Positions 6,937 through 23,885 of a DNA stretch of 64,000 bases are shown piece by piece. Position numbers and translations under genes: made by a program. The stretch comes from Rhodococcus sp. IEGM 1381 (GTDB lineage Bacteria; Actinomycetota; Actinomycetes; Mycobacteriales; Mycobacteriaceae), in assembly GCF_030056795.1 (NCBI RefSeq), contig NZ_JASHKQ010000013.1:1-64000 (forward strand), in the 5' to 3' direction. Below the pieces are notes generated by a model that worked only from the letters and a program-made list of their open reading frames with translations, was not told where the DNA came from and did no database searches. Position 1 is the first letter of the stretch, and every line of letters begins with the position of its first letter.

Positions 6937-8282
6937 GATGCCGCCGCGCTGAAGCCGACCTCGAGATCGGCGATGATGTCGTCGATTCCTTCGATTCCCA
7001 CGGCCAGACGAACCAGACCTGGCGTCACTCCCGATGCCAGCTGCTCGTCGGGAGTCAGCTGGGAATGGGTGGTGGACGCGGGATGAATGACGAGTGAGCG
7101 CACGTCTCCGATGTTAGCGACGTGGCTGTGCAGTGTGAGCGCGTTGACGAACTTCTTGCCCGCGTCCACGCCGCCCTTCAACTCGAACGCGACGATCGCA
7201 CCTTGCCCCTTGGGCAACAACTCCTGGCCGCGTCGGTACCACGGCGACGATTCGAGTCCGGCGTAGTTGATCGAGACGACATCGTCGCGGCCGGCGAGGA
7301 ACTCGGCCACCTTCTGAGCGTTCGCCACGTGCCGCTCGATTCGGAGGCTCAACGTCTCGATGCCCTGGCTGATGAGGAAGGCGTTGAACGGGGAGACCGC
7401 CGCACCGATGTCACGCAGCAGCTGCACGCGTGCTTTCAATGCGAATGCAGGTGCGCCGAGATCGGCGAAGACCACACCGTGGTAGCTGGGGTCCGCGGTG
7501 GTGAAGTTCGGGTGACGGCCCTGCGTCCAATCGAAGGTGCCACCGTCGACGATGACGCCCGCGATCGCCGTGCCGTGCCCGCCCAGGTACTTGGTCGCCG
7601 AGTGCACGACGATGTCGGCACCGTGCTTCAACGGCTGCAGCAGGTACGGCGTTGCCACTGTGTTGTCCACGATCAACGGGATGCCGTTTTCGTGGGCCAC
7701 CGCCGAGATGCCGGGGATGTCGAGAATGTCGTTCTTCGGGTTGGAGATCGACTCACCGTAGAACGCCTTGGTCGACGGCGTGATCGCGGCTCGCCACTGC
7801 TCGAGATCATCGGGATCGTCGACGAACGAGACGGTGATGCCCAGCTTGGGGAGCGTGTAGTGGAAGAGGTTGTACGTACCGCCGTACAGTCGAGGGCTTG
7901 AGACGATGTGGTCTCCTGCCTCGGCGAGGTTGAGAATCGCAAACGTCTCGGCCGCCTGACCCGACGCGAGCAGCAGGGCAGCGACGCCACCTTCGAGAGC
8001 GGCGATGCGCTGCTCCACGACGTCCTGGGTGGGGTTGATGATGCGGGTGTAGATGTTGCCCGGCTCTGCGAGGCCGAACAATGCAGCCGCGTGATCGGTG
8101 TTGTCGAACGTGTACGAGGTGGTCTGGTAGATCGGCAATGCGCGGGCGTTGGTAGCGCCGTCCGGGGTCTGACCCGAGTGGATCTGCTTGGTCTCGAAGC
8201 TCCAGTTGGCCGACGGGTCGGTGAACGGATCCTCGGTGGGTGCTCCGGTGGCGTCGACGACGTCGGGGGTCGAATCGGTCAT
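6933..8282 (-). CDS. metY: O-acetylhomoserine sulfhydrylase
   Basis: This encodes 449 residues of a PLP-dependent Cys/Met-metabolism enzyme that makes homocysteine from O-acetylhomoserine and sulfide. The PLP Lys is 231 in [28 protein letters not shown] and EKRIA-like helix residues (90-97), the TTSYTF segment and the C-terminal [11 protein letters not shown] loop are family hallmarks. The length and the extended C-terminal region favour MetY over MetB or MetC. The start is ATG 8282 with GGAG eleven bases upstream. The gene follows a 300-base leader containing a SAM-IV aptamer and a short Cys-rich ORF, so SAM and perhaps cysteine supply both tune it. Confidence 0.94.
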
Positions 8283-8317
8283 GGCTGGTGATACTCCGTT
8301 TTCTGAGACGAGTCTGT

Positions 8318-8389
8318 CTAAGACGAATCGAATGTCGAATGATGCTCGAGAAGTCGAGCGTTACGGGGCGTATCGGTACAGCAACACAT
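8318..8389 (-). CDS. Cys-rich leader peptide ORF ahead of metY
   Basis: A 23-codon ORF begins ATG-TGT-TGC-TGT (MCCCTDTPRN...) and ends with TAG at 8318-8320, 35 bases before the metY start. A perfect AGGAGG sits seven bases before the ATG, a stronger ribosome site than that of metY itself. Three consecutive Cys codons directly after the start are very unlikely by chance. They match the pattern of actinobacterial leader peptides whose ribosome stalls or slows when charged tRNA-Cys is scarce. It lies between the SAM-IV aptamer and metY, downstream of two hairpins. I infer a second, cysteine-responsive control layer. Confidence 0.7.
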   Translation of the reverse strand: MCCCTDTPRNARLLEHHSTFDSS

Positions 8390-8406
8390 GAGAGAACCTC
8401 CTGACA

Positions 8407-8458
8407 GGCCTCGACCCCAGGAGGCCGAAGATTCAGTGGGTCCGCTTCCTGCGGACCC
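8407..8458 (-). other. Two hairpins between the SAM-IV aptamer and the leader ORF
   Basis: Two perfect stems lie here. One is GGGTCCGC/GCGGACCC around a five-base loop at 8438-8458. The other is GGCCTC/GAGGCC around an eight-base loop at 8407-8426. The second ends only a few bases before the AGGAGG of the leader ORF. They are candidates for the expression platform of the riboswitch, acting on termination or on access to the ribosome site. No T-run follows either, so translational control is more likely. Confidence 0.5.
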
Positions 8459-8580
8459 GCGCTTGTCGATTCGGCACTCGGCGTGCCGGATCGGCCCGGT
8501 CGTTCACCCGGGGCACCCCACCGCGGTTGGAGGGTTGCCGGCCAGCAAGCCGGGGCTCGATGCTGGCACTCATGACCTGG
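8456..8580 (-). promoter_or_regulatory. SAM-IV riboswitch upstream of metYX
   Basis: On the minus strand the element opens GGTCATGAGTGCCAGC at 8577. It continues through CCCCGGCTTGCTGGCCGG, CAACCCTCCAACCGCGG and TGGGGTGCCCCGGGTGA, and the 3' part contains GACAAGCGCGGGTCC. These blocks match the SAM-IV aptamer known from Actinomycetales, which binds S-adenosylmethionine and represses sulfur-metabolism genes. Position and orientation are as expected for metY. The 3' boundary is approximate. Confidence 0.9.
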
Positions 8581-8820
8581 CGAAGATCTTAGCGGGTGGG
8601 GACGTGTCAGCGGAACAAGGGCTCGGCGCGGCGGCCGGTGAGGCTCGAGCAGATGCTCGGGTGAGGACAATCACCGCGCTGCGACTCGAAAACGAGTTGC
8701 CGGAGGGAAGACAATGGTCTGGTTGGCTGTTCTCTTACTCGGTTCCCCCGTGCTGAATCGATTCGGCGAGCCACCGTTCTTGTTGTTCATTTCCCCGATC
8801 GAAACGAAGGTAGTACCGCT

Positions 8821-18170: not shown

Positions 18171-18284
18171 CATCTACGGCACACCGAGTTTGGGCGTGCT
18201 GGATTTCGGCAAAGAGTACTTCGAGGCGCGGCACCGTGGCGACACGATCCGACAGCAGCCGACGACAGCGAGAAGGTGAGTGCC

Positions 18285-19304
18285 ATGCCCGATTTCAAGG
18301 CGATCCTCGACGACCGGCGCACACGGTGGCCGTGGCTCGATCACACCGTTGTTGCTGCGCAGCGGTATCAGGGCCAGAAGGGCGACTACTACGCGGCAGG
18401 CATGACGTATTTCAGTGTGCTGGCCCTGTTCCCGCTGCTGATGGTCGCATTCGCGATCGCCGGGTTCGTGCTGGTGAATCAGCCCGAATGGCTTGCCGAA
18501 ATCCAGTCGCAGATTGCCGAGAACGTGCCCGGCAGCTTCGGTGAGACCATCAGTTCGCTGATCCAGACGGCCATCGAATCTCGGACGAGCGTCGGCATCA
18601 TCGGTCTGCTCGGTGCCCTGTATGCCGGTCTCGGTTGGATCGCAAACCTGCGCGAGGCACTGACCGCCATGTGGGAGAGCCAGCACGAGCAGGGCGGTTT
18701 TCTGGCCACCAAGGCCAAGGATTTCGCCGCGCTGCTCGGGCTGGGGACCGCACTGGTGCTGTCGCTGGCGTTGTCGGCACTGGCCGGTGGTGACCTGATG
18801 CGCAGCATTCTCGAGTGGGCCAATCTCGATTCCGTCCCAGGAGTGGGTGTCGCACTGCGCGTCTTCTCGATTCTCCTCGCGCTGGCGGGCACCTGGGCGT
18901 TGTTCACCTGGGTGATCTCGCGGCTGCCGCGCGAGCCGGTGTCGTGGCGCAGCGCGGCCAAAGGTGCGTTGCTCGCTGCCGTCGGGTTCGAGATCTTCAA
19001 GCAACTCGGTGCCATCTACCTGGCATCGGTGACGAGCGGTCCTGCAGGCGTGGTCTTCGGACCCATCATCGGTCTGCTGGTGTTCGTGTTCACGACGTCG
19101 CGGCTCGTGCTGTTCTCCACGTCGTTCGCCGCGACGACTCGCGAAAGTCTGGCCGAAGCTCATGTTCCGGCCCCGGACCCGGCGGTGATCAACACGAGGG
19201 TCGAGGTCAGCGAAGGACCGTCCGTGACGGGTGGCCTGGCGCTGGTGGGTGCTGGTGCCCTCGCCGCTCTCGGCGTCGCGGGATTGCGCAACAGACGCCG
19301 CTGA
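18285..19304 (+). CDS. yhjD: YihY/BrkB-family inner membrane protein YhjD
   Basis: This encodes 339 residues with six main transmembrane helices. GDYYAAGMTYFSVLALFPLL near residue 35 is the family signature. Further motifs are ALYAGLGWIANLREALTAMW and a re-entrant region, VSWRSAAKGALLAAVGFEIF. The C-terminus adds a hydrophobic stretch ending in an RNRRR tail. BrkB/YhjD proteins are poorly understood; some act as transporters, and YhjD was proposed as an alternative lipid A export partner in E. coli, which cannot be its role here. The start is ATG 18285 with AGAAGG eight bases upstream; the GTG at 18276 abuts that site and is unlikely. Confidence 0.88.
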   Translation: MPDFKAILDDRRTRWPWLDHTVVAAQRYQGQKGDYYAAGMTYFSVLALFPLLMVAFAIAGFVLVNQPEWLAEIQSQIAENVPGSFGETISSLIQTAIESRTSVGIIGLLGALYAGLGWIANLREALTAMWESQHEQGGFLATKAKDFAALLGLGTALVLSLALSALAGGDLMRSILEWANLDSVPGVGVALRVFSILLALAGTWALFTWVISRLPREPVSWRSAAKGALLAAVGFEIFKQLGAIYLASVTSGPAGVVFGPIIGLLVFVFTTSRLVLFSTSFAATTRESLAEAHVPAPDPAVINTRVEVSEGPSVTGGLALVGAGALAALGVAGLRNRRR

Positions 19305-19337: not shown

Positions 19338-20648
19338 TCAGCGGTTGCGCGAAAGCCGTCGAGCTCCCCACAGCAGTCCGATCACCACGATCGCACCGAT
19401 GACACCTATCGCGATGCGAACGACGGTGTCGCCTTGGGCCTGCATCTCGGACTGGCGGGAGCTCGACCCCGACGCCGATGCGGGTGGCTGGGCGAGAGTC
19501 GGCGTGGCCTCGGGCGCGCGTGTGCTCGTCACCGCGGACGTCGACTGCGGCTCCACGAGTTCGCCTATGCCGCGGCTCGAATCGAGCGCGAACCCGTAGT
19601 CCAACAGGCGGGCCGCTTGCTCCCACGGGCGGATCGGCAGCACGTCACCCTTCATGATCGTCACGACGAGCCGCCGGTCGCCCCGTTCTGCTCCTGCGAC
19701 GAATGTCTGGCGAGCATCGTCGGTGTACCCGGTCTTGCCTCCGAGTGCTCCCTCGTAGTTGTAGAGCAGCTGATTGTCGTTGGAGAGGGTGAACCCGGGC
19801 CGGTCTTGGTCGTCCGGGATCGTGGGATCCTTCGGGTAGCCGGGAAACTGAACGGTCTCGGTCGAAATCAGTTGCGCGAAGGTCGGATCACGCATGGCCG
19901 CGCGATAGATCAATGCCAGATCGTAGGCAGAGCTCGCCATGCCCGGACCGTCGAGACCCGACGGCGTGGCCGTGCGAGTGTCGAGCGCACCCAGTTCTGC
20001 GGCCTTGGCATTCATCTTGTCCACGGTGGCCGCGTCGCCGCCCAACTGCCTGGACAACGCGTGCGCTGCATCGTTTCCCGATGCCATCACCAGGCCCTGC
20101 ATCAATTGGAGATTGGTGTAGACACCGTTCTCTCCGATGCCGACGGCACTGCCCTCGGCATCGGCGTCCTCTGCGGTCGCGGTGATCTGGGAATTCAAGT
20201 TCAGCTCGTCGAGGGCGACGATCGCAAGTAGCACCTTGATCGTGCTCGCCGGCCGATGCCGCCCGTGCGGATCCTTGGCGGCCAGAACGGAGCCGGAGTC
20301 CATATCGGCCACCACGAACCCGGTGGCCGAGATATCGGCAGGCAAAGGGGGAGCCCCGTCCGGCAGCACCGCTCCACACTCGGCGAGCCGATCCCCGCCG
20401 ACGGCCTCAGCGGGAATCGGGAGTGGTTGCGGGGCAGTGCCTCCAGGGGCCGGTACCTCGGACAGGTCGATCGCCGGGGGAGGTGACGCGGCGAACGGGC
20501 AGCTGTCGGTGTCGGGCGTCGTGAACGGCGGTGTCGTCGTCACCGCCGGTGGCTCGGCGGCGGGTTGCGCCAGAGCCGGTCCACAGCCGATGCCGACGAG
20601 AACCATCGACACTGCCGACACGGCCACGCACACTCGAATCCTTTTCAT
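19338..20648 (-). CDS. D-alanyl-D-alanine carboxypeptidase (class C low-mass PBP, DacB1-like)
   Basis: This encodes 436 residues. A signal peptide (1-27) is followed by a Pro/Thr-rich linker. The penicillin-binding fold has SxxK Ser135-Lys138 (PASTIK), SGN at 190-192 and KTG at 305-307 (GGKTGYTDDARQ), so the enzyme should be active in trimming pentapeptide stems of peptidoglycan. A second Ser/Thr/Pro-rich linker (about 375-405) leads to one C-terminal transmembrane helix and a basic end (WGARRLSRNR), so it is anchored at both ends of the periplasmic domain. The ATG follows TATGGT by eight bases. It converges on yhjD, as with Rv3330/Rv3335c. Confidence 0.92.
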   Translation of the reverse strand: MKRIRVCVAVSAVSMVLVGIGCGPALAQPAAEPPAVTTTPPFTTPDTDSCPFAASPPPAIDLSEVPAPGGTAPQPLPIPAEAVGGDRLAECGAVLPDGAPPLPADISATGFVVADMDSGSVLAAKDPHGRHRPASTIKVLLAIVALDELNLNSQITATAEDADAEGSAVGIGENGVYTNLQLMQGLVMASGNDAAHALSRQLGGDAATVDKMNAKAAELGALDTRTATPSGLDGPGMASSAYDLALIYRAAMRDPTFAQLISTETVQFPGYPKDPTIPDDQDRPGFTLSNDNQLLYNYEGALGGKTGYTDDARQTFVAGAERGDRRLVVTIMKGDVLPIRPWEQAARLLDYGFALDSSRGIGELVEPQSTSAVTSTRAPEATPTLAQPPASASGSSSRQSEMQAQGDTVVRIAIGVIGAIVVIGLLWGARRLSRNR

Positions 20649-20798: not shown

Positions 20799-20814
20799 AT
20801 GAGAACTCGCTCAT
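20799..20814. promoter_or_regulatory. Inverted-repeat motif upstream of Asp-rich gene 1
   Basis: ATGAGAACTCGCTCAT lies 90 bases before the Asp-rich gene. It matches 13 of 16 positions of ATGAGAGTTCTCTCAT at 23870-23885, upstream of the second Asp-rich gene and the sensor kinase. I infer a binding site for the response regulator encoded between them. Confidence 0.5.
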
Positions 20815-20903
20815 GTTGTGCTCCTTCGGTTCTCACGTTCGACAGCGATCGTTGAGTCATCACCGAAACGGTGGCCCACAGAACTCGGATCGAAGGAGCA
20901 GAC

Positions 20904-21326
20904 ATGAGAATGCCAGGAAAGTTCATGATCGTCGGCGCAGCAGCCGTTGTCGTCACCCTCGGAAGCGTCGGCGCACTCGCGATCGCCGATGACGACCCCA
21001 CCCAGCAGCGGCCGTCTTCGATCTCGGTGGAACAGCCTCTGTCGGAGGCAGATTCGGCTCCGAACCCGCCGGCAGCTCCCCAGCAGCCCGCACCGACCCA
21101 GATCCCGGACGACCGCTACGACGACGACTGGGACGACCGCAACGATGATCGCGATGATCGCGACGGTCGCGACGACGACTGGGACGACCGCAACGATGAT
21201 CTGGACGACCGCAACGATGATCTGGACGACCGCAACGATGATCTGGACGACGACCTGGACGACAGCCTGGACGACGACAACGACTGGGACGACGATCTGG
21301 ACGACGAGAACGACTGGGACGACTGA
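20904..21326 (+). CDS. Exported Asp-rich repeat protein (copy 1)
   Basis: This encodes 140 residues. Residues 1-28 form a basic start and hydrophobic segment (FMIVGAAAVVVTLGSVGALA) with AIADD as a possible cleavage site. A Pro/Ala/Gln-rich spacer (30-68) follows. Residues 69-140 are almost only Asp with Trp, Arg, Asn and Leu, including three exact DDRNDDL heptads and DDDWDD or DDLDD units. The net charge is extremely negative. Such tails bind Ca2+ or other divalent cations, or basic polymers; no known domain is recognised. ATG 20904 has GAAGGAG nine bases upstream. It converges on a two-component system whose operon begins with a second Asp-rich protein. Confidence 0.8.
   Translation: MRMPGKFMIVGAAAVVVTLGSVGALAIADDDPTQQRPSSISVEQPLSEADSAPNPPAAPQQPAPTQIPDDRYDDDWDDRNDDRDDRDGRDDDWDDRNDDLDDRNDDLDDRNDDLDDDLDDSLDDDNDWDDDLDDENDWDD
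21183..21245 (+). repeat. Three exact 21-bp tandem repeats in the Asp-rich gene
   Basis: The unit GACGACCGCAACGATGATCT plus G occurs three times without mismatch and encodes the heptad DDRNDDL. Degenerate copies flank it on both sides. Codon-level identity points to recent slippage expansion, and copy number probably varies between strains. Confidence 0.9.
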
Positions 21327-21335
21327 TACTCGAGC

Positions 21336-21363
21336 AGTGGCGTCGGCACCGGCCGACGCCACT
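21336..21363. terminator. Bidirectional terminator hairpin
   Basis: The arms AGTGGCGTCGGC and GCCGACGCCACT pair perfectly over 12 bases around a four-base loop. The hairpin fills the gap between the convergent Asp-rich gene 1 and the response regulator, whose stop codon it touches. It would serve both strands. Confidence 0.75.
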
Positions 21364-22025
21364 CATGTCTCGGACAGTCGGTATCCCATTCCGCGGACGG
21401 TCTCGATTCGTGCGGCGCCGAATTTCGCCCGAAGGTAGCGGACGTAGACGTCGACGACATTCGATCCCGGGTCGAAGTCGTAGCCCCACACCTGCGACAG
21501 GAGTTGCTCTCGCGAGAGGACCTGGCCGGGGTGGCGCATGAAGGTCTCGGCCAGGGCGAACTCACGGGCCGACAGGTCGACGGTTCGGTCTCCCACCACA
21601 GCTCGCCGAGTACGCAGGTCGAGGGTGAGGTCGGCGACCGCGAGCTGCGTGGTGTCGACGGTTCGTTTGGTGCCCAGGCGAACTCGGATGCGCGCCAGCA
21701 GTTCCTCGAATCGGAACGGCTTGGCCATGTAGTCGTCGGCACCGGTCTCGAGACCGGACACCACGTCGTGGACGCTGTCGCGGGCGGTCAACACGATCAC
21801 CGGTATCTCGCACTGCTCTCCACGCAGTCGCTGCAGTACCTCGAAGCCGTCCATGATCGGCAACCCGATGTCGAGTACCACCAGATCGAAGTCACCGCTG
21901 CGGGCGTGTTCGTACGCGGATCTGCCGTCGGAGACGGTCGTCGTGCTGAAACCGCTCGCTCGCAGCCCCTTGTGGACGAATGAGGCTATGCGGGGTTCGT
22001 CTTCGGCGATCAGGATGCGGGCCAT
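21363..22025 (-). CDS. OmpR-family response regulator of the Asp-rich locus
   Basis: This encodes 220 residues. The receiver domain has EDE at 8-10, phosphoacceptor Asp52 (VVLDIGLP), LTARDS and KPFRFEELLARI. The DNA-binding winged helix (about 125-218) ends IETVRGMGYRLSET. The recognition region NVVDVYVRYLRAKFG resembles the MprA/TcrA-like branch of actinobacterial regulators. It is the last gene of an operon, Asp-rich protein 2 - kinase - regulator, and its ATG lies inside the kinase gene (16-base overlap). This kinase-first order is less common. Likely targets are the two similar inverted repeats upstream of the Asp-rich genes. Confidence 0.92.
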   Translation of the reverse strand: MARILIAEDEPRIASFVHKGLRASGFSTTTVSDGRSAYEHARSGDFDLVVLDIGLPIMDGFEVLQRLRGEQCEIPVIVLTARDSVHDVVSGLETGADDYMAKPFRFEELLARIRVRLGTKRTVDTTQLAVADLTLDLRTRRAVVGDRTVDLSAREFALAETFMRHPGQVLSREQLLSQVWGYDFDPGSNVVDVYVRYLRAKFGAARIETVRGMGYRLSET

Positions 22026-23482
22026 GGTCGATCCTTCTGCGGGGGTAGGGAATCGGTCAGTGGAATCGTGATGGTGAACGTGGCCCCGTGTCCCGGTGCG
22101 CTGCCGACACTCACCCGTCCACCATGGGCCTGTGCGATGGCGGTGACGATGGACAATCCGAGCCCCGCGCCCTCGGTGCGTCTGGTTCCGTTGCGACCGC
22201 GGGCGAAGCGCTCGAAGATTCGTTCCTGCTCGTCGCGCTCGATTCCCGGGCCCGAGTCTGTGACCCAGAACCGGATGTCACCGTCGGACAGTTGTGATCC
22301 GATGCCGACGCGACTGCCGGGTATCGTGTGGTGAGTTGCGTTGTCCGCCAACGCCAGCAGTGCCTGGGTCAGTCGTTGCGCGTCGAGCGACGCGTGGACG
22401 GTTGCGCTCGCCTCCAGCACCCATTCCCGGTCGGCGAGGGTGGTCACCTTGTCGAACACGCTTCGAGTGAGCGCGTCGACATCGGTGTCCACCGGCGTGA
22501 CGAAGCTCGTCTGGTCGGCCCGGGTGAGCAGCAACAGGTCTGCGACGAGTCGGTTCATTCGATCGAGTTCGTCGTCGACGAGCGCGACGGTATCTCGAAC
22601 GTCGGCGGGGTCGCCGTGGTCGAGCACATCGAGATGACCTCGGACGATGGTGATGGGAGTGCGGAGCTCGTGGCCTGCATCGTCGAGGAATCGGCGCTGA
22701 CTCGCCGCGCCGGACTCGATTCGGTCGAGCATCGAGTTCAGGGTGTCGATCAGGGCTCCGATGTCGTCGCCTCGACCCGTCGTTCTGGCGTCGGTGATTC
22801 GGCCGGACAGGTCGGTCTCGGTGATCGTTCTGGCGGTGGCGGTGATGTGTCTGATCGGCGACATGATGCGGCCCGCGACGAACCACGCCCCTGCTGCCGC
22901 CAGCACCGAGGTGACGCCGCCGACGACGAGCATCAGGGTCGCGGTCTCGTCGGCCGACGCGCGTTCCTGGTCGGCGAAGTAGGCGGCGACCACGACCCCG
23001 GTCACCGGGTCGCCCGCCAGGGAGACCGGCACCGCGAGGTACACCACTTCACCTGCCGCACTCGAATACGAACCCTCGACCGGCGCGGTGACGGTACCGA
23101 CCTCGGCGGTGAAGCCGGTGTCGTCGGAGAGACGCACCGGTGCCTGCTGCCTGCTCTGCACGGCGAAAGCGCCGTCCACGTAACCCAGGAACTTCTCGTT
23201 GGGGCGAGCGAGGTTGTAGGTGATCACCACGCGGAGCACGTCGTTGATGTCGACGAACGGTGCGCCGGTTCCTGGATCGACGCCTGCGTCGGTGAGGGTG
23301 GTGAACTCGGCGATCTCGGTGCGCAGCGATTCGCGCATGCGATTGTCGGTCGCGCGGATCATGAGCAGCCAGGTGGTGACGGTGACGGCCGCCAGAGACG
23401 CCAGCACCAGCAGCAGCACCCACGAGAAGATGCGGCTCCGAGCGCTCGTCGGGCGTAGTGGGAGCAGTCGCGTCCGCATCAC
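22010..23482 (-). CDS. Sensor histidine kinase of the Asp-rich locus
   Basis: This encodes 490 residues. Transmembrane helices (about 19-42 and 184-205) bound an extracytoplasmic sensor domain of about 140 residues with a PAS-like (sCache-type) look, including DINDVLRVVITYNL, GEVVYLAVPV and TGVVVAAYFADQ. A HAMP domain (206-258) is followed by the H-box DDAGHELRTP with phospho-His 271, LADNATHHT, DSGPGIERDE and GAGLGLSIV, all intact. The start is GTG 23482 or the adjacent ATG 23479. It begins 21 bases after the Asp-rich gene 2 stop. A plausible signal is the cation status or charge of the cell surface, inferred only from its neighbours. Confidence 0.92.
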   Translation of the reverse strand: MMRTRLLPLRPTSARSRIFSWVLLLVLASLAAVTVTTWLLMIRATDNRMRESLRTEIAEFTTLTDAGVDPGTGAPFVDINDVLRVVITYNLARPNEKFLGYVDGAFAVQSRQQAPVRLSDDTGFTAEVGTVTAPVEGSYSSAAGEVVYLAVPVSLAGDPVTGVVVAAYFADQERASADETATLMLVVGGVTSVLAAAGAWFVAGRIMSPIRHITATARTITETDLSGRITDARTTGRGDDIGALIDTLNSMLDRIESGAASQRRFLDDAGHELRTPITIVRGHLDVLDHGDPADVRDTVALVDDELDRMNRLVADLLLLTRADQTSFVTPVDTDVDALTRSVFDKVTTLADREWVLEASATVHASLDAQRLTQALLALADNATHHTIPGSRVGIGSQLSDGDIRFWVTDSGPGIERDEQERIFERFARGRNGTRRTEGAGLGLSIVTAIAQAHGGRVSVGSAPGHGATFTITIPLTDSLPPQKDRPWPAS

Positions 23483-23503
23483 GTGGTCGGTCTCGCAGCA
23501 GGG

Positions 23504-23824
23504 TCAGTCGTCGTCATCGTCATCCCAGTCGTCGTCGAAGTCATCGTCCCAGTCGGCAGGCGGCAGCGGCGGCGGGGGCACGAATCCGTCCGGTGCCACC
23601 GGCTGTGGCGCGGTGGTGGGCGCAGTGGTGGGCGCGGGATCGCCCGGTTCCGGTGCTGGGGGAACGGGTTGCGGGGTACCCGGGGCGGATTGCACGGGTG
23701 CGGCGGGTGCGACGATGGGTGCGGGCAACGGGGTCTGCTCGCCCGTCGATCGAGTCGTCAGCAATGCTGCGACGAGCACGGCGAGCGTGAGCAGTCCCAG
23801 GGCCGAGACGATGATGGTTCGCAC
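23504..23824 (-). CDS. Exported Asp-rich protein (copy 2), first gene of the kinase operon
   Basis: This encodes 106 residues. An N-terminal hydrophobic helix (3-23, SALGLLTLAVLVAALL) without an obvious cleavage site suggests a membrane anchor. Residues 30-88 are Pro/Ala/Thr-rich with repeated APTT and PVAP units. The last 17 residues are ADWDDDFDDDWDDDDDD. The layout (helix, Pro-rich spacer, Asp/Trp tail) is the same as in copy 1, although the sequences are otherwise different. It is cotranscribed with the kinase and regulator. A strong inverted repeat lies 46 bases upstream of the start and is a candidate autoregulatory site. It may serve as an accessory cation sensor or buffer. Confidence 0.78.
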   Translation of the reverse strand: MRTIIVSALGLLTLAVLVAALLTTRSTGEQTPLPAPIVAPAAPVQSAPGTPQPVPPAPEPGDPAPTTAPTTAPQPVAPDGFVPPPPLPPADWDDDFDDDWDDDDDD

Positions 23825-23869
23825 ACAGCCGAGTCTGACGACGGCGCATTGTGGGTACGTGAGTCACCG

Positions 23870-23885
23870 ATGAGAGTTCTCTCAT
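23870..23885. promoter_or_regulatory. Inverted-repeat motif upstream of the Asp-rich/kinase operon
   Basis: ATGAGAGTTCTCTCAT, extended to GATGAGAG-TT-CTCTCATC, is an eight-base perfect inverted repeat with a two-base centre. It resembles the motif at 20799 (13 of 16 bases). It is a candidate site for the locus response regulator. Confidence 0.55.

Follow-up and report, generated by a model that had tools for sequence, protein, structure and literature searches.

Do the two aspartate-rich proteins that flank a two-component system in Rhodococcus sp. IEGM 1381 form a single regulon with that system, and what would their tails do there? The locus lies in the 64,000-nucleotide (nt) stretch of DNA that we analyzed as a whole (the window), and its source genome is 5.5 Mb and Rhodococcus-type. 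On the minus strand, an operon runs from the gene for a protein with an N-terminal hydrophobic anchor and an Asp tail (Asp1) through the genes for a sensor histidine kinase (HK) and a response regulator (RR); convergent with it, on the plus strand, is the gene for an exported low-complexity Asp-rich protein (Asp2). The original prediction for this DNA had placed two Asp-rich proteins around the HK-RR pair, and open reading frames (ORFs), composition and Pfam matches bore out its coordinates and features; the two 16-mers that it named upstream of these proteins are identical at 13 of 16 positions. It had further proposed one shared regulon, an idea that the conserved motif, promoter geometry and gene layout across families strongly support. 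Because the palindrome is enriched, is concentrated at the locus and recurs class-wide, and because Asp1 stands before the kinase, it is very likely that these genes form one regulon and that the operon's own regulator reads it.

A palindrome and stepped promoter before Asp1 and Asp2

The pattern ATGAGANNTCNCTCAT, which was derived from the very two sites that it finds, has exactly two perfect matches in the 5.5-Mb genome, both at this locus, and the looser ATGAGN6CTCAT has three, two of them here. We fetched 77 related loci by a kinase search of public genomes (best 80 of 194, not dereplicated) and found 129 ATGAGN6CTCAT palindromes in them, where 20 Markov shuffles give an expectation of 0.15. 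Of these, 58 lie at most 700 nt before the kinase match, 66 lie at most 2600 nt past the regulator, five are elsewhere and none falls within HK or RR coding DNA. Asp1 was called when a protein had at least 8 Asp in its last 30 residues, which is true of 0 of 161 coding-like background ORFs; the median in the 63 called Asp1 is 16. All 58 upstream palindromes accompany a called Asp1. Five called Asp1 have no perfect site: four (L046, L058, L075 and L100) have a single-mismatch site and one (L054) is cut short. When the loci were checked by hand, the rule-based totals of 63 and 58 became Asp1 in 64 loci, a perfect box before Asp1 in 59 and neither in 13; the difference is L101, whose kinase match begins late and which was added from the ORF list and box scan. 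In the 13 loci lacking Asp1, we saw no perfect box ahead of the kinase; in two of them, L072 and L077, the contig is cut. Among the grounds named for giving up the original prediction were that relatives had lost the motif or that the Asp-rich genes did not depend on the kinase and regulator; the motif proved to be kept across families, and for Asp1 no such independence was found.

Palindromes in whole genomes follow the same pattern. Among 37 genomes of the genus, the 12 with an orthologous kinase hold 36 palindromes (24 at this locus, three at the locus of a 40%-identical kinase and nine elsewhere), and the 25 without one hold 35, which is the background rate (a reversed-pattern control finds 48 in the 37 genomes). 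Another 11 whole genomes carry 32 palindromes, 25 of them at the locus, and the control gives 4 matches.

When we aligned the promoters, the operator proved to extend beyond the palindrome: half-sites stand at offsets 0 (inverted ATGAG), 11 (CTCAT), 22 and 33, followed by a −10-like [TCG]A...T at 48. Counts were made on dereplicated sequences, which left 44 of 58 Asp1 promoters, 42 of 55 Asp2/other promoters and 12 of 13 promoters of a gene for an APH-fold kinase that is described below. The −10-like element at 48 is present in 37/44 Asp1, 32/42 Asp2/other and 11/12 APH promoters, and the median at other offsets is 0. Exact CTCA at 22 occurs in 37/44 Asp1, 11/12 APH and 4/42 Asp2/other promoters, and at 33 it occurs in 32/42 Asp2/other, 3/44 Asp1 and 0/12 APH promoters. 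At the level of sequence comparison, this promoter architecture and its co-occurrence with the system are established. The Asp1 GTG of the window (23822-23824) begins 7 nt past the −10 element CAGACT, and by eye the Asp1 start codon lies a few nt past the −10 in many loci; because the start codon trails the −10 so closely, the Asp1 transcript is probably leaderless. Upstream of the Asp2 ATG at 20904 there is an AAGGAG ribosome-binding sequence. Since the half-site spacing is regular and a half-site occupies the place of the −35 element, the regulator is predicted to act as an activator at this stepped array.

Spread and probable recognition of the operator

A promoter score rule was built on the orthologues and then applied to other loci with a threshold of 15. 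Among 13 loci with 37–43%-identical kinases (11 from the genus and two from the order), 12 score at least 15 (ATGAAGAAACCTTCAT is one of their operators), and an Asp-tailed protein stands ahead of the kinase in 12; L029 is the exception on both counts. In an even sample of the class, a kinase match at E≤1e-65 was found in 43 of 148 genomes, among them that of the window, with 49 matches in total, and the class loci that we examined are the 29 best-scoring besides the window's own. An Asp tail is present in 24 or 25 of these (25 by the rule, with L174 dubious) and the promoter scores at least 15 in 16, as compared to 0 of 580 shuffles, so that class-wide the same design accompanies kinases of 40–46% identity. 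The strict palindrome occurs 21 times in 12 class genomes (control 0), 12 times at the main locus; seven of the remaining nine sites have a low promoter score and two a high one. The operator, the −10 position and the start are constant across much of a bacterial class. An operator this fixed is a ready target for chromatin immunoprecipitation (ChIP), electrophoretic mobility shift assays (EMSA) and reporters, and because it is fixed the signal and the role of the polyelectrolyte tail are directly testable.

The two high-scoring sites away from the main locus (both 18) are of different kinds. In L231 (G186:C1:5811500-5817500) there is a second, decayed copy of the system, comprising Asp1 with a good box, a kinase fragment and an RR gene. 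At L227:2361-2376 (G204:C3:386000-391000), a strict palindrome with the full stepped promoter lies far from the system, with no gene start placed directly behind it. In three loci of one genus (L226:2252, L232:2408 and L233:2401), a strict palindrome without the stepped promoter is near a nucleotide-sugar dehydrogenase-like gene (by eye) and is perhaps another regulator's site. A cyanobacterial contig carries two kinase genes that are related, and ATGAGAAGGTTCTCAT stands directly before one of them (L104:1183-1198); no Asp tail was called ahead of the best-matching kinase of L104.

The domain matches of the window HK (HAMP, HisKA and HATPase_c) and RR (Response_reg and Trans_reg_C) all exceed the Pfam gathering cut-offs. 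When tested with TIGR01387/TIGR01386, the RR has cztR/silR/copR as its nearest NCBIfam family, with a score below the cut-off (222.2 against 279.2), and the HK scores 183.2 for cztS/silS/copS, below the cut-off of 292.55. The CusR box of E. coli is AAAATGACAAnnTTGTCATTTT, and the CusR regulon is described as very restrictive (PMC11195947). As judged from that published box, the window-type box and the CusR-type ATGACAAnnTTGTCAT-like palindrome have equal spacing; the ATGAGAAnnTTCTCAT form differs by one base per half-site, and the commoner ATGAGAGnnCTCTCAT form, again with equal spacing, by two. Taking the nearest family and the resemblance to the published CusR box together with the co-occurrence of box and system, it is highly probable that the operon's own RR binds the box. 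Two other candidates were rejected. MacR of Streptomyces, considered for its TGAG..CTCA operator, is listed as NarL-type in a review table. CutR belongs to CutRS of Streptomyces, which is likewise an actinobacterial envelope-related two-component system, but its motif, TAWATAAA (PMC12802291), is unlike the box here.

What the acidic tails may do

Asp1 opens with a short N-terminus, which is followed by a hydrophobic segment, then by a Pro-rich stretch and finally by the Asp tail, and in the window its C-terminal end is ADWDDDFDDDWDDDDDD (13 D among 17 residues). The Asp2 tail of the window has 72 residues, with 44 D, 1 E, 8 R, 6 N and 4 W, and it too follows a Pro-rich stretch; the N-terminus of Asp2 is signal-peptide-like and has, by eye, a signal-peptidase-like site at AIA/DDD. 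In 63 Asp1 proteins, the last 30 residues contain on average 16.2 Asp, 0.44 Glu and 0.30 Lys+Arg, an Asp:Glu ratio of about 36:1 with codons GAC (859) and GAT (162). GAC and GAG are equal in GC cost, yet the Asp tails are nearly free of Glu, and the preference for Asp over Glu suggests either coordination of a hard cation or selection for an extended chain. In Actinomycetospora, the hydrophobic segment of Asp1 closes with a Cys and looks like that of a lipoprotein (L051, L093, L095, L099 and L108), as does that of Asp2 (L051, L093, L095 and L099), and the tail is kept in both proteins. A lipobox pattern flagged all four of these Asp2 and the Asp1 of L051, L071 and L099, of which L071 was judged false; the Asp1 of L093, L095 and L108 were read by eye. 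Because these proteins look like lipoproteins, the tails very probably lie on the outer side of the membrane.

Asp2 is present in 49 of the 77 loci (55 were called, and L056, L073, L076, L081, L088 and L109 were removed as false). The counterpart is Asp-rich in Rhodococcus and carries TPDD or SPESADSP repeats in Geodermatophilaceae and Pseudonocardia. A PepSY origin of Asp2 was considered and dropped: there was a single weak match, in the Asp2 of L060 (25.5 vs 60), a PepSY family search of 61 genomes gave matches in eight and none in the window's genome, and neither window protein has a PepSY domain in Pfam or NCBIfam.

The reading that we favor, with about an even chance of being right as a whole, is that the Asp1 tail is a cation-binding accessory or feedback element of an autoregulated sensory operon. 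Phosphorylated RR would fill the stepped half-site array and switch on transcription of Asp1-HK-RR and, from the facing promoter, of Asp2. Asp1 would then sit with its N-terminus in the membrane and its Asp tail outside, beside the kinase, whose translation follows that of Asp1; the tail would bind a multivalent cation, either a hard metal ion (Ca, Mg) or an organic polycation, and the cation-loaded tail would modulate the kinase. Asp2, co-induced, secreted and disordered, would serve as an extra cation buffer in this genus. Cation binding by the tail and control of the kinase are the conjectural steps. More tentatively, and with less probability than an even chance, there may be three-part sensors across the actinobacterial class whose input is a polyaspartate tail tethered to the membrane. 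This tail would condense multivalent cations (or be displaced by cationic antimicrobials) and so set the kinase, the system would boost its own tail via the leaderless promoter, and a lineage-specific secreted disordered protein and a detoxifying enzyme would be the outputs.

The signal is narrowed by the kinase sensor domains, which contain no Cys in 48 of 48 sequences and 0–4 His, with no His at 90% in 41 orthologues; because Cys is absent and His is scarce, sensing of soft metals (copper- or zinc-type coordination) by the kinase is unlikely. The HK model (mean predicted local distance difference test (pLDDT) 81, predicted template modeling (TM) score (pTM) 0.48) has a mixed alpha/beta extracytoplasmic domain, and in a structure comparison of the kinase core part it resembles DivL, HprS, CusS and others.

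Several observations weigh against the cation-binding reading or its generality. The sensor domain of the kinase is mildly acidic too, with a net charge of −1 to −17, so direct contact between tail and sensor is not obvious. The Asp2 counterpart is a neutral Ser/Ala/Pro protein in L214, L215 and L218 and consists of Asn/Thr/Arg/Asp repeats in L216, L217 and L225; boxes stand at such Arg/Asn/Thr-rich counterparts in L216 (score 18) and L225 (score 20), and L217 has no perfect box at its own. Because the tail chemistry of Asp2 varies by clade, a general polyanion coat does not fit, and the constant trait of Asp2, as predicted from these sequences, is that of an exported disordered protein. The original prediction had the system answer divalent cation, cationic peptide or envelope charge stress by covering the surface with polyanionic protein, a putative role that is thereby weakened for Asp2. 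The third half-site is degenerate in most Asp2 promoters and the fourth in most Asp1 and APH promoters, 13 of the 29 class loci score below 15, and four class loci (L170, L171, L172 and L186) have no called Asp1. In L088, L091 and L092, with kinases of 57–59% identity, both Asp1 and the box are missing. Finally, among all columns of an 84-sequence RR alignment, residue 197, which we take, by eye, to lie in the recognition helix, best tracks operator base 5, but the two coincide in one change only on the tree and are not used as proof.

The main alternative, which we consider rather unlikely, is defense against cationic or other antimicrobials, in which the kinase would sense a compound or envelope damage, the acidic tails would be decoys, and accessory targets would modify or export the compound. 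Such targets are suggested by further genes that carry the box. An APH-fold kinase gene is nearby in 35 of the 77 loci, with 13 perfect boxes assigned to it and the −10 at +48 in nearly all of them after dereplication, and the protein keeps HGD...Q and LxDxD motifs. In a Foldseek search with its AlphaFold model (pLDDT 90.7), macrolide phosphotransferases are four of the five best among the 50 matches listed, and aminoglycoside phosphotransferases are many of those listed (query TM 0.28–0.50); a mycobacterial maltokinase has rank 5 in the same list, and the fold does not fix the substrate of the kinase. The Pfam APH family matches above the cut-off in L045 and L103 and not at all in L060 and L094, and for three APH-fold proteins the NCBIfam APH families give at most 34.3 bits against a cut-off of 205. 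The window contains no APH-fold kinase gene, and 37 genomes of its genus gave no APH-like match at E≤1e-20, an empty result that by itself shows little. In three Asp1-less mycobacterial loci from metagenome-assembled genomes (MAGs), boxes precede an MFS_3 exporter gene; they are perfect in L090 (6547 and 6585) and L096 (7319 and 7357) and have one mismatch in L089 (8359). These exporters resemble Tet(V), Mef and, in L090, Tap at scores below the cut-off, but their best NCBIfam matches, also below cut-off, are an H+ antiporter subfamily and EntS. The APH-fold kinase and the exporter as targets suggest that a compound may be the signal instead of a cation, whereas a pure charge decoy would have no need of Asp over Glu.

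Two further genes were seen beside the APH-fold kinase gene. At L094:7885, beside an APH-like gene, a box precedes a phytase-like lipoprotein gene by about 100 nt. In L214 and L215, a gene for a CNNM/haemolysin-like membrane protein (by eye; 7337-8686 and 1112-2461, respectively) and the APH-fold kinase gene diverge, and the box between them points to the kinase gene.

The tails could also be structural, that is, disordered spacers or bristles through the cell wall that report or maintain the envelope state and bind no ligand. Asp2 tails that differ in composition and remain low-complexity would suit such a role, as would the Pro-rich stretch ahead of the tail in both window proteins; we nevertheless judge it improbable, since Asp is kept in the Asp1 tail at most loci and Glu is nearly absent. 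It is very improbable that a different regulator, with its gene outside this locus, reads the box and that the Asp genes are mere neighbors of the two-component system. The nine strict sites away from the main locus in the 12 class genomes would agree with an outside reader, but the operator variants move together with their HK-RR relatives, genus genomes without the orthologous kinase carry palindromes at background only, and most palindromes in the 11 whole genomes are at this locus. That the Asp tracts are slippage artefacts of GC-rich DNA, as their repetitiveness and varying length might suggest, is hardly credible given the Asp:Glu ratio with both GAC and GAT in use, a tail that is kept while anchors change, and a tail position shared by loci that range from Rhodococcus to an Acidimicrobiaceae MAG (L103).

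Known systems and features of the locus

We know of no assigned signal for a two-component system led by a polyaspartate-tailed membrane protein. A two-component system with an accessory protein is in itself a known kind; the Asp-tailed partner and the stepped operator appear to be new. We found no description of Asp-tailed kinase partners or of this operator in the main texts of the open-access literature among the best-listed results, in agreement with the original prediction that no system of this form had been described.

The disordered metal sponges SilE and PcoE have a Met/His-rich tail. In contrast, Asp1 and Asp2 of the window have no His and use Asp instead of Met/His, and any Met is confined to the signal region at the N-terminus of Asp2. 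SilE has been called a periplasmic 'molecular sponge' that is intrinsically disordered (PMC5008109), and CusR also controls pcoE (PMC11195947). CusRS, CopRS and CzcRS resemble the system here in that it has an OmpR-type RR nearest cztR/silR/copR, a palindrome of equal spacing and a very small regulon (PMC11195947). It differs from them in that its RR and HK fall under the family cut-offs, no metal pump is among the targets seen, one of the disordered proteins is membrane-anchored and encoded inside the kinase operon, and the operator, which departs from that of CusR by one or two bases per half-site, is extended by stepped half-sites. CpxP (of CpxAR) and QseG (of QseEF) are likewise extracytoplasmic proteins paired with a sensor kinase (PMC4160245, PMC12691602, PMC6075780), whereas the accessory part here would be an Asp tail from the first operon gene, and the window Asp1 and Asp2 match no Pfam or NCBIfam family. 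AfsQ1/Q2 of Streptomyces coelicolor is another two-component operon of the actinobacteria; its exported partner is the lipoprotein AfsQ3, for which contact with the kinase has been proposed (PMC9739842). That review speaks of no acidic tail, and 'acidic' occurs 0 times in its main text.

Table 1. Positions of the genes, promoter elements and neighboring genes in the window.
Feature	Positions	Strand	Details
Asp1, first operon gene	23504-23824	-	106 aa; GTG start; N-terminal hydrophobic anchor, Pro-rich spacer, Asp/Trp C-terminal tail
Sensor histidine kinase (HK)	22010-23482	-	extracytoplasmic domain ~residues 42-169, HAMP, HisKA, HATPase (Pfam)
Response regulator (RR), OmpR/PhoB-type	21363-22025	-	Response_reg and Trans_reg_C (Pfam); overlaps HK gene end
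Asp2, exported low-complexity Asp-rich protein	20904-21326	+	140 aa; ATG start at 20904
Operator core of Asp1 promoter, half-sites 1 and 2	23870-23885	-	ATGAGAGAACTCTCAT in gene orientation
Half-site 3 of Asp1 promoter, CTCAC, +22	23859-23863	-	offset count
Half-site 4 of Asp1 promoter, ACAAT, +33, degenerate here	23848-23852	-	offset count
−10 element of Asp1 promoter, CAGACT, +48	23832-23837	-	offset count
Operator core of Asp2 promoter, half-sites 1 and 2	20799-20814	+	ATGAGAACTCGCTCAT
Half-site 3 of Asp2 promoter, CTCCT	20821-20825	+	offset count
Half-site 4 of Asp2 promoter, CTCAC	20832-20836	+	offset count
−10-like GATCGT of Asp2 promoter, +48	20847-20852	+	offset count
D-Ala-D-Ala carboxypeptidase (Peptidase_S11)	19338-20648		Pfam
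BrkB/YihY membrane protein	18276-19304		Pfam

Two other genes lie on the Asp2 side of the locus. The carboxypeptidase gene adjoins the Asp2 region and the BrkB/YihY gene is the second neighbor; in the genome scan with ATGAGN6CTCAT, the only perfect palindrome close to either is Asp2's own box.

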